Source: a virus
Direction: 5' to 3' (one strand)
IMG/VR virus record: IMGVR_UViG_3300022745_000018
Location: 1-64,000 of that record
Length of the DNA: 64,000 bases
Shown: piece by piece, positions 57,880-64,000 of the stretch
How the letters are laid out: the number at the start of each line of letters is the position of its first letter
How positions within the stretch are numbered: the first letter of the stretch is position 1
Notes under the pieces: generated by a model
What the model saw: only the letters and a program-made list of their open reading frames with translations
What the model was told of the DNA's origin: nothing
Databases searched by the model: none
Position numbers and translations under genes: made by a program

Positions 57880-58562
57880 ACTTTCTAGATGGGCCATTCA
57901 CTAAAGGTGATGTAGAGATTCAAGAAGTGAATCTTGATAGGGATGATTCTGGTCCCTATCGCATTTACATTGACGAAGAAGGAAACAAATATGAGTCAGT
58001 GACATCGTTCATTGGTCGCTCAGATCCTTCTAAAGAAGCCAGTCTCCAAGCTTGGAAGAATGCAGTTGGGTTGGAAGAGGCTAATGCGATATCAGAAGCA
58101 GCAGCAACAAAGGGTACTGCAGTCCACCTTGCATGCGAACAGTACATCGCTGGGTTGCGATGGCAGGACATCTCGATGTTCTGCAAAGCAGACTTTCTAT
58201 CAATCAAGAAACTCTTGGATGCAAAACTGTCTAAAGTAATTGGATCTGAGTTGCGGATGTACTCGAAACGTCTTAAGCTGGCTGGTACGACGGACTTGCT
58301 GGCTTCCTGGGACAATGAGATCTCAATCATTGACTTCAAAACATCTGGTAGAATCAAGTACAAAGATGAGATTGATGGGTACTTTCTTCAGATGGCTGCG
58401 TATGCTGCAATGGCATACGAGATGTATGGGATTCGAGTCAAGCATTTAGTCGTTATCATGGCGGTAGATGGTGACCCCAATGCATATGAATACGCCGAGA
58501 CAGTCGGTTATTGGCTGAACAAATTGATAGAGCTTAGAAGGACATATCCAGCTCTCCAGTAA
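57876..58562 (+). CDS. PD-(D/E)XK nuclease of the RecB/Cas4 type
   Basis: 228 residues. GTAVHLACEQYI gives the conserved upstream His, KLAGTTDLLASW the D of GxxD, EISIIDFKTSGR the D-x-K core, and YFLQMAAYAAMAYE the Q-x3-Y motif: the full RecB-family exonuclease signature. No four-cysteine cluster of Cas4 is seen. Coupled by ATGA to the DinG-type helicase. Probably processes DNA ends. Confidence 0.85.
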   Translation: MNFLDGPFTKGDVEIQEVNLDRDDSGPYRIYIDEEGNKYESVTSFIGRSDPSKEASLQAWKNAVGLEEANAISEAAATKGTAVHLACEQYIAGLRWQDISMFCKADFLSIKKLLDAKLSKVIGSELRMYSKRLKLAGTTDLLASWDNEISIIDFKTSGRIKYKDEIDGYFLQMAAYAAMAYEMYGIRVKHLVVIMAVDGDPNAYEYAETVGYWLNKLIELRRTYPALQ

Positions 58563-58580
58563 CTATCGCGATGCTGTCGG

Positions 58581-58588
58581 TTAAATAT
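58581..58588 (+). promoter_or_regulatory. Possible late-type box TTAAATAT
   Basis: GGTTAAATATATGC just upstream of the PAAR gene. It fits the need for late expression of a tail-tip and terminase message, but is only 5 nt from the start codon. Confidence 0.35.
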
Positions 58589-58592
58589 ATGC

Positions 58593-58865
58593 ATGACAGC
58601 AGTAACAAGATTGGGTGATTTATGCTCTGGTCACGGAGTTTGTTCACCTAGACCATCAACGTCTGGTTCTCCAGACGTCTTTGCGAATTCAAAACCAGTA
58701 CACAGACAACATGATCTGTGGGGACAGCACTGTCTACATACATCTGAACTTTCTGGTGGTTCGTCTACTGTTTTCGTTAATAGCCGTCCACTTGGACGTG
58801 TGGGTGATACTATAGCATGCGGGTCAACCGTCGCGAACGGTTCGCCAAATGTGTTCTCAGGGTAG
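58593..58865 (+). CDS. PAAR-repeat tail spike tip protein (T4 gp5.4 type)
   Basis: 90 residues. Two PAAR-like halves are visible (TRLGDLCSGHG, then RPLGRVGDTIACGS), with FANSKPVHRQHDLWGQHCLH and VFVNSRPLGR motifs and the His/Cys residues that bind a metal at the tip. It caps the central spike of the contractile tail. Directly upstream of the terminase fragments on the plus strand; a poor ribosome-binding site. Confidence 0.85.
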   Translation: MTAVTRLGDLCSGHGVCSPRPSTSGSPDVFANSKPVHRQHDLWGQHCLHTSELSGGSSTVFVNSRPLGRVGDTIACGSTVANGSPNVFSG

Positions 58866-58868
58866 TAG

Positions 58869-59543
58869 ATGAAAAGAAACGAACTGGCTGAAGGTATCCA
58901 ACATTACCTAGGCAATCCTTTATTAAAAGCCGCTAGACAGCCGCTCCAATTTACCATGGAGCAAGCTAAGGAATATGCTAAGTGCGCCCGTGATCCGGTC
59001 TACTTCATTGAGAACTATGTAAGGATCGTTTCGCTGGACGAAGGTCTTGTTCTATTCAAGATGTATCCGTATCAGAAACGAATGATTCGTGCGATGCACC
59101 ATGGTCGAAAGGTCGTGGGTAAGATCTTTAGACAGGCTGGTAAATCCGCGATCTGCGCTGCATACATTTCTTGGTATATCACGTTCAATGGACACAAGAC
59201 AGCGGCCATCTTAGCAAACAAAGCATCGATTGCTAGGGAGATCTTCAGTAGGATTCAAGTCATTCTCGAGAACCTTCCTTTTTGGTTGCAGCAAGGTGTC
59301 TTGGAATGGAACAAGACATCGTTGGAATTAGAGAACGGTTCCAAGTGCTTTTGTGCAGCAAGTTCGCCTTCTTCTGTTAGGGGTAAGTCGATCAATCTAC
59401 TTTTTTGCGTCGCTGGTGAGACAAAAGTTCATCTTCGAAATAAACTAACTGGCGAAATTGTTGAAGTACCTATATCTGACTTGAAGGGTTTGCTTAGAAG
59501 AGAGGAGGAAGATGATGAAGGATTTTCAATTTCCCTCAATTAA
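58869..59543 (+). CDS. 17: Large terminase fragment 1 (N-extein) with N-half of split intein 1
   Basis: 224 residues. Residues 1-179 are the N-terminal part of a T4 gp17-like packaging ATPase: YPYQKRMIRAMHHGRK, Walker A IFRQAGKSA (88-94), LANKASIAREIFSRIQ, then EWNKTSLELENGSKC and the conserved SSVRGKSINLLF. At residue 180 the protein changes into an intein N-half (CVAGETKVHLRNKLTGEIVE, block A), which ends after 45 residues by overlap with the endonuclease gene. The break is inside Walker B (LLF|CDEFA), so this piece alone cannot hydrolyse ATP. The rest of TerL is in the genes at 60719 and 62426. Confidence 0.92.
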   Translation: MKRNELAEGIQHYLGNPLLKAARQPLQFTMEQAKEYAKCARDPVYFIENYVRIVSLDEGLVLFKMYPYQKRMIRAMHHGRKVVGKIFRQAGKSAICAAYISWYITFNGHKTAAILANKASIAREIFSRIQVILENLPFWLQQGVLEWNKTSLELENGSKCFCAASSPSSVRGKSINLLFCVAGETKVHLRNKLTGEIVEVPISDLKGLLRREEEDDEGFSISLN

Positions 59544-61039
59544 AGAAACTGACGATTATCTAAGATTCATAGAAGAATGTATAGAACCAAACGAACATTG
59601 TGAAAAACATCACATATATCCAAAATCGATATTTGGTGACAATTCCTTCATAAAGAAGCTGTCATATAAAGATCACTTCTTTGCTCATTATTTGTTGGTT
59701 AAGCTATATGAAGCCGCTGGGATGAAATCTGAATACTTGAAGATGTCAAAAGCATTCTTTTCTTTCATTCGCTGCAATGAATATCGGTTATCTGAAATAT
59801 CATCGTATTCGGATGATGACATCACTGTGTTAGGGTGTCTATTTGAGGAAGCGAAAATTGAAAACTCTAAATCTTCAAACGGCGAAAACAATCCTTTTTA
59901 TGGTAAATCCCATTCGCCGGAAACTATTGAGAAAATACTGAATACAAAGAAGACACGTAATTCAATGAAATTTTGGACAAATGAGAAGAAAAAACGTCTA
60001 AGCGAAGTCCTCAAATCTCTACAAAATAAAAAGGTCATTTGGGTCACGAATGTTGAGACTAGAGAGAATCGTAGAGTATCTGAAAACGATCTTAACAACA
60101 TTTCAGATGAATGGGTTCTTGGTAGATATACATCAGATGAAGAGCGTCTGCACAGATCATACTCAGCCAAGGAATCCTCACATAATCTAACTTACGAATG
60201 GGTTCGCCGTGGAGATGAGCATGAATGGAGTGGCACCAAACACATAAAGTCGCTAGAGACTGGTGAAAATAGACGTCTAAAGATCAGTGATGAAATACCC
60301 AGTGGGTTTGTGTTAGGGCTCAATTTTTCGCAGTCTCATTTGGATAATCTTAGAATGGCGGCAAGTAAACGTAGAGGTAGACCACAACCTCACGTAATTG
60401 AGATCAATAAAAATCCATCCAAGATAAAGAAGACAGCTGATAAAAATCGCGGCACTACTCGCACAGAAAGTCAGAAATTAAAAATGAGTCTTGGGAGAAG
60501 AAAGTTTATCGCGAACGGGGGCAAAGCTTCGACTGCTGGTACGAAAAGATTGTTCAACAAATTATCTAAGAAGTTCGTATATGTACCTGCGAATGAAGTC
60601 TCCAATTCAATGAAAGAGAATTTGAATCTAACTGATGAAGCAGTAAGATTGGCGACGAACATGAATGGTGATAGATTGTATGTCTGTCAAACGGAAACAT
60701 TACCCAATGGATTTGAATATGTTCTTAGAAAATAATGAATGGGAAGTTTTGACGGATGAAGGGTGGTCCGATTTTTCGGCTCTGAAGATAGGTCGGGGTG
60801 CATTCGTATCAATATCTTTCTCCAATCAAGAAAGCATAAGAGTCACCGCCGATCATTTGTTGATGACGGCTGATGGGTGGGTTGCTGCAAAAAACATCAA
60901 TGTTGGTGATAATGTAAAGTCCATAGATGGCTTCATCGATGTCATTTCAATAAATGATGGTGGCGAAGGTGAGACTTTCGATTTAGTCGGTGTAAAGAAG
61001 AATTCTAGGTATTTTACGAATGATGTTCTGTCACATAAT
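59406..61039 (+). other. Split intein 1 in the terminase Walker B motif, with inserted endonuclease gene
   Basis: The N-half begins at Cys codon 59406-59408 and covers block A. The C-half (about 60719-61039) carries block B with the TxxH motif (VTADHLLMTADGW), then ETFDLVGVKKN and the terminal NDVLSHN followed by extein Cys (CDEFAHL). Only about 45 residues lie on the N side and about 107 on the C side, the reverse of commonly studied split inteins. An HNH gene occupies the interruption. All residues needed for splicing (C1, block B His, penultimate His, terminal Asn, +1 Cys) are present. Confidence 0.88.
59512..60735 (+). CDS. Free-standing HNH homing endonuclease inside split intein 1
   Basis: 407 residues from ATG 59512 with a strong AGGAGGAAG site; it overlaps both intein halves. 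The HNH core is CEKHHIYPKSIFG ... LSYKDHFFAHYLLVKLY (about residues 30-65). A NUMOD3-type DNA-binding motif follows (NPFYGKSHSPETIEKI), then two related segments with WVRR/WVTN plus ETxENRRxS and a basic C-terminal region (KMSLGRRKFIANGG). The enzyme would cut terminase genes lacking the insertion and spread the whole fractured intein. Intact. Confidence 0.88.
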   Translation: MMKDFQFPSIKETDDYLRFIEECIEPNEHCEKHHIYPKSIFGDNSFIKKLSYKDHFFAHYLLVKLYEAAGMKSEYLKMSKAFFSFIRCNEYRLSEISSYSDDDITVLGCLFEEAKIENSKSSNGENNPFYGKSHSPETIEKILNTKKTRNSMKFWTNEKKKRLSEVLKSLQNKKVIWVTNVETRENRRVSENDLNNISDEWVLGRYTSDEERLHRSYSAKESSHNLTYEWVRRGDEHEWSGTKHIKSLETGENRRLKISDEIPSGFVLGLNFSQSHLDNLRMAASKRRGRPQPHVIEINKNPSKIKKTADKNRGTTRTESQKLKMSLGRRKFIANGGKASTAGTKRLFNKLSKKFVYVPANEVSNSMKENLNLTDEAVRLATNMNGDRLYVCQTETLPNGFEYVLRK

Positions 61040-61411
61040 TGCGACGAATTTGCCCACTTGGCTCCAAAATTAGCAGAAGAGTTTATTGCATCGGTTTTCC
61101 CGACGATCTCGTCGTCAATGGAATCGAAGCTGATTATCGTATCCACGCCAAAGGGTATGAATCAGTTTTACAAACTGTGGGTAGATGCTGAGAATGGGAA
61201 GAATGGCTTCATAACGGTTGAGGGTAAGTGGAGAGAACATCCCAAGAGAAACCAGAAATGGGCGGATGAGCAATTAGCAATTCTCGGGCCCGTCAAGTAC
61301 AAGCAAGAAGTGGAATGTCTTTGGGGAAAATCCAAAATAACATTAAGAGATGTTGTGACAGGGGAAATCTTGAATGTGTCTTTAGAAGAAGCATATGATC
61401 TAATTTGTTAA
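60719..61411 (+). CDS. 17: Large terminase fragment 2: C-half of intein 1, middle extein, N-half of intein 2
   Basis: About 230 residues from ATG 60719 (MFLENNEWEVLTDEGW), with ATGs further upstream in frame. Residues 1-107 are the intein 1 C-half ending LSHN. Residues 108-199 are the 92-residue middle extein, beginning CDEFAHLAPK (Walker B acids), then LIIVSTPKGMNQFYKLW (coupling motif) and closing KYKQEVE. Residues 200-230 are the intein 2 N-half (CLWGKSKITLRDVVTGEIL...). This piece must be spliced at both ends to yield TerL. It overlaps the first endonuclease gene by 17 nt. Confidence 0.9.
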   Translation: MFLENNEWEVLTDEGWSDFSALKIGRGAFVSISFSNQESIRVTADHLLMTADGWVAAKNINVGDNVKSIDGFIDVISINDGGEGETFDLVGVKKNSRYFTNDVLSHNCDEFAHLAPKLAEEFIASVFPTISSSMESKLIIVSTPKGMNQFYKLWVDAENGKNGFITVEGKWREHPKRNQKWADEQLAILGPVKYKQEVECLWGKSKITLRDVVTGEILNVSLEEAYDLIC

Positions 61412-61415
61412 ATAC
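61408..61415 (+). promoter_or_regulatory. Possible late-type box TTAAATAC
   Basis: TTGTTAAATACAAAC overlaps the stop codon of terminase fragment 2 and precedes the second endonuclease gene. It may give that gene or fragment 3 its own late message. Confidence 0.35.
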
Positions 61416-61430
61416 AAACAAAAAGATCAT

Positions 61431-62448
61431 ATGAGAGAACATACTTACATTGGAAATTTGCTTCGTAGTAGATATATTATAGTCGATGAATCGTATCTAA
61501 ATGAATATGTTGATTTGTGTTTATCAAAGGCTCTACCAACAAAGATTAGATTTGAAACGGAATGCCACCACATTCTACCTAAATGCAATAGGGCATTTCC
61601 TGAATTTAGAAAAGCAAAGTGGAATTTAGTTCACTTACGATTCGCTGATCACGTTCACGCTCACTATTTGTTGTATAAAGCAACACGTGCTGCAGAATTT
61701 GCCGCGGCGATGGTGTTTACTCTTGGCAATAGTTGCGCGTTTCCAAGAACTGATGCTGAATTGCTGGATATATTACCGATCATTGAGAAAATATGAATAC
61801 TCGCTATTCATGAATAGCGAGAGAAACCCTAACATTGGCTCAAAACGTTCGCTAGAGACCAAATTGAAAATGTCCATTGCACAAAAGGGTGTCAAGAGAG
61901 AATATGTAAAACGTATTTGGGTTCATAACTACATCGAAGATAAGATGGTGCAGGATGTTGAATTAAACGATTACATAAATGCTGGTTGGCAATTTGGCCG
62001 CACCGAAGCAACAAGAATGAAACTAGCAGACAGTAAATTAGGGACAAAGGACTCGGATGAGACTAGAATTAGAAAAAGTTTGGCGCAAAGCAAATATGCA
62101 AATTCCAGCGGTTCACACTTAAAGACATCTGAGTTTAGAGAATACCGCCGTAACATGTTCATTAAAAATAACCCATCATCATCTATGGAGGCGAGAGATA
62201 AAATTTCTGCTCGGATGAGAAAGCGCTGGGGTAATGATGATTATAGATCAAAAATGAGTGAAATGTTCTCTAACATAAACACGGGAAGTAAATTTTTCTA
62301 TAACATAGAAACAAAGGAATTTCGTAGATTTAAGCTAACAGACGAAATTCCACCAGGATTTCAAGATGCAACAGGTAAAACGCATTGGGTTAAAGATCAA
62401 AACGGAAAACGATTGAAAGTCATCGATGAAACGAAATTCACGGTTTGA
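61431..62448 (+). pseudogene. Frameshifted HNH homing endonuclease inside split intein 2
   Basis: The frame from ATG 61431 encodes the HNH core (CHHILPKCNRAFPEF, then NLVHLRFADHVHAHYLLYKA) and stops at 61796 after LPIIEKI. One base on, another frame continues the homology to the first endonuclease: NSERNPNIGSKRSLETKLKM (NUMOD3-like), VKRIWVHNYIEDK and KFFYNIETKEFRRFKLTDEI, ending 62448. Together they make a full-length relative of the enzyme at 59512. The shift lies directly before a perfect 22-bp palindrome. Either the gene has decayed or it needs a +1 ribosomal shift; decay is more likely. Confidence 0.75.
61800..61821. repeat. 22-bp perfect palindrome at the endonuclease frameshift
   Basis: CTCGCTATTCA-TGAATAGCGAG equals its own reverse complement and begins 4 nt after the premature TGA (61794-61796). 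It could be a recombination scar, a hairpin that favours indels, or a stimulator of frameshifting. Confidence 0.85.
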
Positions 62449-63562
62449 AATTCATGGCCCGCGTGGTTGGTGCAAGTTCGATGGGATTCGAAGAAAGAAG
62501 TCTTCGTCTTTATTAAAAATAGTTTTTGAAGATGGGGCACCATTAGTGTGCACTCGTGATCACCGATTCTTTATTGATGGCAAATTCATACAAGCCGCTA
62601 AAGTGCAAACCGGTAAGGAGATGAACGGGCGTGTTGTTCATGAAGTCGTGCCCATTGATGAATCGATGAGCGTCTACGACCCGGTTAACGTCGCTGATGG
62701 CAATGCGTATATTGCGGATTGTGTTGTTAACCACAATTGCAGTTTCGTCGGTTCGTCGAAGACACTGATTGATGGTGACAAGATTGCTCAGATCCCATTC
62801 ATTGAACCTTTACATGAAACGACCGACAACTTGAAGATGTATGAGGCGTCAATCCAAGGTCATTCGTATGTCTGTGCGGTTGACGTCTCTAGAGGTCAAC
62901 ACTTAGATAGTTCAGCGTTCATTATCTATGATGTGACGGTGATGCCATATAAGATCGTTGCTACGTTCAAGAATAATACGATATCCACACTGACTTACCC
63001 GTTCATGATCATCAATACATGTAAAGCATACAACGATGCCTACTGTCTGGTTGAGATCAATGATGCTGGTGGTGAAGTCGCCAATTCCATCTTCTACGAT
63101 AGTGAATATGCCAATGTCTATTGGACTCATAAGGACGACTTGGTAGAAGGTCTTGGATACCCTGGAGTTCGTTCCACGAAACGTGTAAAGGGCGTCGGTT
63201 GTTCAGTCTTGAAAGAATTGGTGGAACAGAACCAATTGATCGTGAATTCATATGACATCATCAATGAAATGAACAACTTCATTGCCAAGGGTGCATCGTA
63301 TGCAGCCGACGATACTCAGATCAATGATGACTTGATGACGTGTCTTTGGTTATTTGCGTGGCTGACAAAGCAACCGATGTTTGCTGACATCACCAATACG
63401 AACATCAGAGCAGTTCTGAATAGAAAGTATGAGGATTCTATTCTGGAAAGTCTGATTCCGTTTGGATACATTACTGATGGGACGGAAGAAAGTGCAGATC
63501 CAGTGACACACTTGGATCAGATGCGAACACCTGACCCAATGAAAGATTGGTTGTTAGGGTAA
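62426..63562 (+). CDS. 17: Large terminase fragment 3: C-half of intein 2 and C-extein with nuclease domain
   Basis: 378 residues. Residues 1-104 are the intein 2 C-half. Residues 105-378 continue TerL from CSFVGSSKTLIDGDKI into the RNase H-like nuclease: VCAVDVSRGQHLDSSAFI (first acid), AYCLVEINDAGGEVANSIFY (second acid) and DTQINDDLMTCLWLFAWL (third acid), matching T4 gp17 D401, E458 and D542. Joined to fragments 1 and 2 (179 and 92 residues of extein) it gives a 545-residue terminase; T4 gp17 has 610. It overlaps the second endonuclease reading frame by 23 nt. Confidence 0.93.
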   Translation: MKRNSRFEIHGPRGWCKFDGIRRKKSSSLLKIVFEDGAPLVCTRDHRFFIDGKFIQAAKVQTGKEMNGRVVHEVVPIDESMSVYDPVNVADGNAYIADCVVNHNCSFVGSSKTLIDGDKIAQIPFIEPLHETTDNLKMYEASIQGHSYVCAVDVSRGQHLDSSAFIIYDVTVMPYKIVATFKNNTISTLTYPFMIINTCKAYNDAYCLVEINDAGGEVANSIFYDSEYANVYWTHKDDLVEGLGYPGVRSTKRVKGVGCSVLKELVEQNQLIVNSYDIINEMNNFIAKGASYAADDTQINDDLMTCLWLFAWLTKQPMFADITNTNIRAVLNRKYEDSILESLIPFGYITDGTEESADPVTHLDQMRTPDPMKDWLLG

Positions 63563-63575
63563 CGAGTACCCTAAC
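63553..63575. terminator. Bidirectional terminator between convergent genes
   Basis: GTTAGGGTA and TACCCTAAC pair over 9 bp with a five-base loop, overlapping the terminase stop codon. On the plus strand TTGGTTT follows. It would end both the terminase message and that of the convergent gene. Confidence 0.6.
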
Positions 63576-63580
63576 TTGGT

Positions 63581-64000
63581 TTAGGCTGTAGTTTCTTCAG
63601 CCATCAATGCAGCCAGTTCGGCCTGCAACTCATCGATGGTTTTGGTACCCAGCGATTCATTGCGTTTGGTTTCGATCAATTCCATGATCTTCTGTGCAGA
63701 AGCATTGCGATGGGCACGACGTTCAGCAGTGACTTTCTCGGCTTTCTTGATCTCGATGATCTCTTTCAAGACATCAAGAGCGATAGCCGATTCACGGTCA
63801 ACTTTCGTCGGTTCACCAGTGACGAACGAAGGAACCTCAGCGTCTTTGCGCTTCTTGAAGATTTCCATTGCAATGGAATCCAAACTGACACGACCACCTG
63901 AAGCAGTCAACGGCAGATCAAACAGATCTTCAACGGTCAAGATGCCTTTGGTTGTCGCAAAGCGAAGTTTCAAACGGGCTGCTTGCAAAAATACATTCAT
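63581..64000 (-). CDS. Conserved phage protein of unknown function
   Basis: 139 residues, complete: ATG occupies the last three bases of the window. The opening FLQAARLKLRFATTKGILTV, EDLFDLPLTA segment and the closing TIDELQAELAALMAEE belong to a family I recognise from many phages (start FxEAxRxKLRFxTxKGxLxxEDLWDLPL), with no known function. The centre is a charged helix (EIIEIKKAEKVTAERRAHRN). It is convergent with the terminase and probably belongs to a leftward operon that begins outside the window. Confidence 0.75.
   Translation of the reverse strand: MNVFLQAARLKLRFATTKGILTVEDLFDLPLTASGGRVSLDSIAMEIFKKRKDAEVPSFVTGEPTKVDRESAIALDVLKEIIEIKKAEKVTAERRAHRNASAQKIMELIETKRNESLGTKTIDELQAELAALMAEETTA

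Follow-up and report, generated by a model that had tools for sequence, protein, structure and literature searches.

The window analysed here comprises the first 64,000 bases of the 171,909-base IMG/VR virus record IMGVR_UViG_3300022745_000018, which has structural and replication genes of the T4 type (among them those for the major head protein, portal, sheath, scaffold and DNA polymerase). Within this window, the gene for the large terminase (TerL) lies in pieces: as the original prediction held, three open reading frames (ORFs) contain one large terminase, divided into three exteins (E1 to E3) that are bordered by the N-terminal (IntN) and C-terminal (IntC) halves of two split inteins (Table 1). 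The first intein sits at site 1, in Walker B, and the second at site 2, the border of the ATPase and nuclease domains. Homing endonuclease genes (HEGs), which were absent from that earlier account, occupy both gaps.

Table 1 Features of the fractured TerL gene in the window.
Feature	Position	Strand	Description and matches
ORF E1-IntN1	58869-59543	+	224 amino acids
TerL extein 1 (E1)	58869-59405	+	179 amino acids; N part of ATPase, Walker A RQAGKS; Terminase_6N 2.2e-6; phrog_5989 7e-57
IntN1	59406-59540	+	N half of split intein 1; 45 amino acids, CVAGETKVHLRNKLTGEI...; in Walker B
HEG1	59512-60735	+	HNH/NUMOD3 homing endonuclease, 407 amino acids; NUMOD3 3.8e-8; phrog_655 7.8e-16
ORF IntC1-E2-IntN2	60665-61411	+	Likely start 60707 or 60719
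IntC1	60707-61039	+	C half of split intein 1; block B TADH, ends SHN; start alternatively 60719
TerL extein 2 (E2)	61040-61315	+	92 amino acids, CDEFAHL...QEVE; remaining Walker B, coupling motif STP; T4 gp17 7e-8
IntN2	61316-61408	+	N half of split intein 2; 31 amino acids, CLWGKSKITLRDVVTGEI...; ATPase/nuclease border
HEG2a	61431-61796	+	HNH part of second homing endonuclease; phrog_12434 1.4e-17; order-conserved similarity to HEG1
Palindrome	61800-61821	+	Perfect, 22 bp, CTCGCTATTCATGAATAGCGAG; at HEG2 frame break; RNA hairpin, z -2.6
HEG2b	61810-62448	+	NUMOD3/DNA-binding part, different frame; NUMOD3 0.004 on ORF 61687-62445; HEG1 C part 3e-6
ORF IntC2-E3	62426-63562	+	378 amino acids
IntC2	62426-62737	+	C half of split intein 2; 104 amino acids, block B TRDH, ends NHN; Cat intein 6dsl 4.8e-10
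TerL extein 3 (E3)	62738-63559	+	274 amino acids; RNase H-like nuclease domain, CSFVGSS...; Terminase_6C 2.6e-9

Cutting at the predicted splice points reproduced the previously given extein lengths of 179, 92 and 274 amino acids, and the joined TerL of 545 amino acids is the collinear gp17-like protein that had been proposed. It matches T4 gp17 (PDB 3ezk) with an E value of 2.4e-88 (residues 12-491) and is 58.3% identical to the intact TerL of the Synechococcus phage BUCT-ZZ01, with no gap at either junction. The full set of gp17-type features could be located, with Walker A at position 88, Walker B at 177, the coupling motif, and the RNase H-like nuclease acids Asp, Glu and Asp in motifs starting at 319, 375 and 467. 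Taken singly, E1 is 60.6% identical to the BUCT-ZZ01 TerL and E2 67% to that of the IMG/VR locus L013, while E3 matches the nuclease of RB49 gp17 (3c6a) at 5e-33 by sequence and at 1.7e-17 (TM 0.91) by Foldseek; the AlphaFold model of IntC2-E3 matches gp17 at 8.5e-20 or better. A search of all 171,909 bases of the record gave no second intact TerL; the sole other similarities are a gene of 219 amino acids and a stretch of 23 residues in a macro-domain-like gene (see below).

Both sites carry the residues of class 1 inteins, namely Cys1, the block B motif, the terminal His-Asn and Cys+1, all of which had been noted before, and in addition the block F Asp. Each break lies between blocks A and B and leaves a short IntN and a long IntC, the atypical split arrangement. 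IntC1 is 111 amino acids long, or 107 if translation starts at 60719, and a profile search, which had been suggested as a check, assigned it to Pfam Intein_splicing (6e-7); it also matches the VidaL intein 6vgv (9e-5) and Cat 6dsl (2e-4). A Hint fold is predicted for both C halves by Foldseek searches with AlphaFold models: the model of the middle piece, a low-confidence one, matches inteins at 1.8e-6, and IntC2 matches Cat 6dsl at 9e-7. IntC2 is 37% identical to the C half of the sister locus L013, and the closest N halves to IntN1 and IntN2 are the site-1 and site-2 inteins, respectively, of locus L126 (50% each). The two C halves of the window are only 23% identical to each other, and the inteins, judged from their sequences, are not recent copies of one another.

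HEG1 appears intact and is preceded by a strong Shine-Dalgarno sequence, GAGGAGG (-12.0 kcal/mol with the anti-Shine-Dalgarno), located within IntN1. HEG2a and HEG2b match HEG1 in order and in different frames, and thus represent a frameshifted second endonuclease, which is probably dead because its frame break coincides with the perfect palindrome. AT content is for the most part higher in the endonuclease regions than in the exteins. With an HNH/NUMOD3 endonuclease gene within each split intein, the TerL gene now consists of three cistrons, and the locus corresponds to the known fractured gene arrangement, doubled: a conserved enzyme gene is split by inteins into separate ORFs whose exteins remain collinear with the intact protein.

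TerL loci were fetched from IMG/VR and from phage records and scored for the occupancy of sites 1 and 2; since this sample was drawn with intein-containing queries, it gives no frequencies. In most of the fetched loci both sites are empty, and others have one of them occupied; this comparison fixes the intein boundaries. Single splits at site 2 are present in isolated phages. In the record of one of these, PX29, 17A is labelled ‘N-intein’ and 17B ‘C-intein’, and the position of IntN2 is the split site in the TerL of PX29, VP-1 and K469. VP-1 combines its split with a contiguous intein at Walker A, in L126 and L119 the split at site 2 is accompanied by a contiguous intein at site 1, and kaaroe and Thanatos-2 are split three residues from site 1. 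Serratia phage 92A1 and Providencia phage PSTRCR_127 were considered as double splits and rejected, as they are single splits with a GIY-YIG gene between the halves. In L050 and L038, the TerL exteins are almost identical, with site 2 split in one and empty in the other, which points to a very recent gain or loss of a split intein. In the Campylobacter phage Los1 (L117:4004-5332), the TerL gene opens with an IntC half, at Walker B. Its E1-IntN counterpart does not lie next to it and so may be located in another part of the genome.

At least two TerL splits were observed in six further distinct loci, L121/L123 (L125 partly), L146/L298, L181/L304, L315, L326 and L328. The five-ORF layout of the window is repeated in L121/L123 and in L146/L181, and the six loci are dissimilar at the DNA level except for L146 and L328 (74% over 750 bases). 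Within each of the pairs L121/L123, L146/L298 and L181/L304, the two contigs come from separate metagenome records and share 99.6-100% identity, which speaks against an error of assembly. Both gaps of the doubly split TerL in L326 (3475-6086) lack an endonuclease; a stop, a Shine-Dalgarno sequence and a new start come after each IntN, indicating that the split outlives the endonuclease. L315 (358-5435; IMGVR_UViG_3300047552_001157), an 8-kb contig that is the single source for this case, carries three split inteins, at Walker A, Walker B and the ATPase/nuclease border; the third, at Walker A, leaves TerL in four pieces. Its Walker A split has no endonuclease, with a stop, a hairpin of -20 kcal/mol and a new start between the intein halves, and the gap genes at the other two sites are HNH (Walker B) and GIY-YIG-like (ATPase/nuclease border). 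A further scan found no second triple-split TerL, and a direct scan of IMG/VR and GTDB with IntC2-E3 of the window gave nothing close.

Two more observations concern these inteins. L328 (27-1661) has a LAGLIDADG-like contiguous intein at Walker A besides splits at the other two sites, that is, three inteins in one gene, and His-Gln replaces His-Asn before Cys+1 in the site-1 inteins of the clade with L146, L181, L175, L180, L315 and L328.

In the extein tree, the sister of the window is L013, which is split at site 2 only, followed by BUCT-ZZ01 with both sites empty; the L121/L146 group is placed far away, and the starred branches require the double-split state to have been gained or lost at least three times. 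The endonuclease at site 2 is GIY-YIG-like in L013 (as read from the translation, with no Pfam match) as opposed to HNH in the window. The C halves cluster by site above chance in their own tree, which is too weak for a history. Between L146 and L181, the ratio of nonsynonymous to synonymous substitution rates (dN/dS), with synonymous sites near saturation, is 0.06 for E1, 0.14 for IntC1 and 0.16 for IntC2. The inteins of these two relatives are under purifying selection, as the latter two values indicate, and are kept rather than decaying.

We conclude that the window very probably contains a doubly fractured T4-type TerL gene, the product of which would be made by tandem protein trans-splicing. 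The TerL gene would have been invaded by two distinct inteins of the atypically split kind, one within Walker B and the other between the ATPase and nuclease domains. E1-IntN1, IntC1-E2-IntN2 and IntC2-E3 would be translated separately and would associate through the pairs IntN1-IntC1 and IntN2-IntC2, after which two trans-splicing reactions would yield the single TerL of 545 amino acids. The original prediction had these reactions in a fixed order, which is neither shown nor required; they could occur in either order. Its other expectation, that four intein halves have to pair correctly, agrees with the layout of the middle piece, in which E2 is preceded by an IntC and followed by an IntN, as in a circularisation construct; the two inteins must therefore be largely orthogonal. 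If IntC1 paired with IntN2, E2 would be circularised, and if IntN1 paired with IntC2, E2 would be skipped.

Several points weigh against this interpretation. IntN1 and IntN2 are 37% identical, which makes cross-pairing possible, and pairing specificity would therefore have to depend mainly on the C halves or on contacts made by the exteins. The model of the middle piece has a low mean predicted local distance difference test score (pLDDT 57). The ribosome-binding site of IntC2 is weak (-0.4 kcal/mol), which suggests that its translation is coupled to that of HEG2b, a part of the broken second endonuclease. The dN/dS values come from relatives, with the near-saturation mentioned above, and for the window itself expression, pairing and splicing are what we infer from the sequence.

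The inteins might instead be dead and the TerL fragments might assemble non-covalently, just as the split NrdA of the Aeromonas phage Aeh1 reportedly works as unspliced pieces. The paper on that NrdA is among the references of PMC3322345. We regard non-covalent assembly as very unlikely for TerL, because complete intein motifs flank the breaks with all catalytic residues intact at both sites, purifying selection acts on the inteins of two relatives with double splits, and site 1 cuts Walker B itself, where unspliced pieces would leave bulky intein domains. Still less probable is that the frame breaks are sequencing errors or that TerL is a pseudogene. HEG2 is really frameshifted and the window comes from a single assembly, but the same layout occurs in contigs of different metagenome records that are identical or 99.6% identical, HEG1 begins inside IntN1 with its strong Shine-Dalgarno sequence, the TerL catalytic residues are all kept, and the record holds no replacement TerL.

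Introns bearing homing endonucleases could in principle account for the gaps, and phage TerL introns exist (ICP1, Jug phages); this is highly improbable here, as intein motifs adjoin the exteins in frame on both sides and no Rfam intron match (E <= 1), group I ribozymes included, was found in 58500-64000. Equally remote are programmed frameshifts joining the pieces into one precursor with contiguous inteins, for although adjacent reading frames share 17-32 nt at the two ends of HEG1 and ahead of IntC2, four or more frameshifts would be needed, a TAA-bounded gap separates IntN2 from HEG2, and L326 has a stop, Shine-Dalgarno sequence and start at both sites without an endonuclease.

Tandem trans-splicing thus remains our preferred reading for the window, and we consider it likely that multi-fractured TerL genes are a recurrent and stably kept form of coding for an enzyme that is essential to the virus, with two, in one case three, independently arisen and mutually orthogonal split inteins. 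The split could then outlast the loss of the endonucleases (L326), and the system would amount to natural tandem trans-splicing of up to four polypeptides. The claim that a double split is exceptional holds in one respect, as we found no report in the open-licence PMC literature of a naturally occurring gene that two or three split inteins divide, and fails in another, since the six further IMG/VR loci show that the window is not unique. New with respect to that literature is the double and triple splitting of TerL; single splits, as in the isolated phage PX29, were already known.

The following observations concern the surroundings of the gene. The T4 late promoter TATAAATA does not occur in the window, and CTAAATA has no match within the TerL region. 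The gene of 219 amino acids is terminase-ATPase-like (G000:C1:101238-101897, minus strand; also L137:1739-2398), 28% identical to TerL residues 9-208, and has neither the Walker A lysine nor a nuclease domain; L066 and L107 have a comparable TerL-like stretch immediately upstream of TerL. Within the part of TerL that encodes the nuclease domain, 61 bases (CKAYNDAYCLVE..., about 63020-63080) are repeated at 79% identity (E 1e-7) in a macro-domain-like gene (G000:C1:88275-88335, minus strand; L136:1516-1983).

If the pieces splice, the three-segment trans-splicing built by protein engineers already exists in nature, in an enzyme that the phage cannot do without. Such loci would be a source of ready split-intein pairs that must ignore each other within one cell. 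The graded series from empty to contiguous sites and to sites split with or without an endonuclease, at one to three positions, lets the fracture of genes, and its possible return, be tested. Many such terminases will be overlooked or annotated as fragments.

In the fractured genes that Dassa and colleagues described in 2009 in Nucleic Acids Research (NAR), split inteins and free-standing homing endonucleases reportedly divide each locus in two. The window resembles these in having an essential phage gene, split inteins and an endonuclease gene between the halves, and differs in that two unrelated inteins divide TerL into three pieces, and into three or four in relatives. PolB of MIJ3 is likewise a fractured gene with one split intein. 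The single-split T4-type TerL genes of PX29 (17A/17B; Aeromonas), Serratia phage 92A1, Providencia phage PSTRCR_127, Vibrio phage EniLVp02 and K469 share site 2, the short IntN, the long IntC and often a GIY-YIG gene in between with the window, whereas only one site is occupied. AceL-TerL and GOS-TerL are atypically split inteins in terminases; they resemble ours in their short IntN and long IntC, and were characterised as single inteins. GOS-TerL (PMC10189870) has Ser1 in contrast to the Cys1 of both inteins in the window. Of the inteins with solved structures, VidaL (6vgv) and the consensus Cat intein (6dsl, ‘with atypical split site’) are nearest in sequence and belong to the close matches by predicted fold, at only 21-27% identity in structural alignments.

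Two inteins in one TerL are also present in the cyanophage Mic1 (PMC7156551) and the crAss-like OBYQ01000140 (PMC7886860), where, unlike in the window, both are contiguous, in frame in one ORF and spliced in cis. TerL genes in two or three fragments owing to group I introns, and an intein together with an intron within one TerL, are known as well. A further parallel is an engineered system of three-segment tandem protein trans-splicing (PMC12707363), in which two orthogonal split inteins join the middle segment to its neighbours on either side, as we infer for the window; that system is a laboratory design, whereas the arrangement described here is natural.
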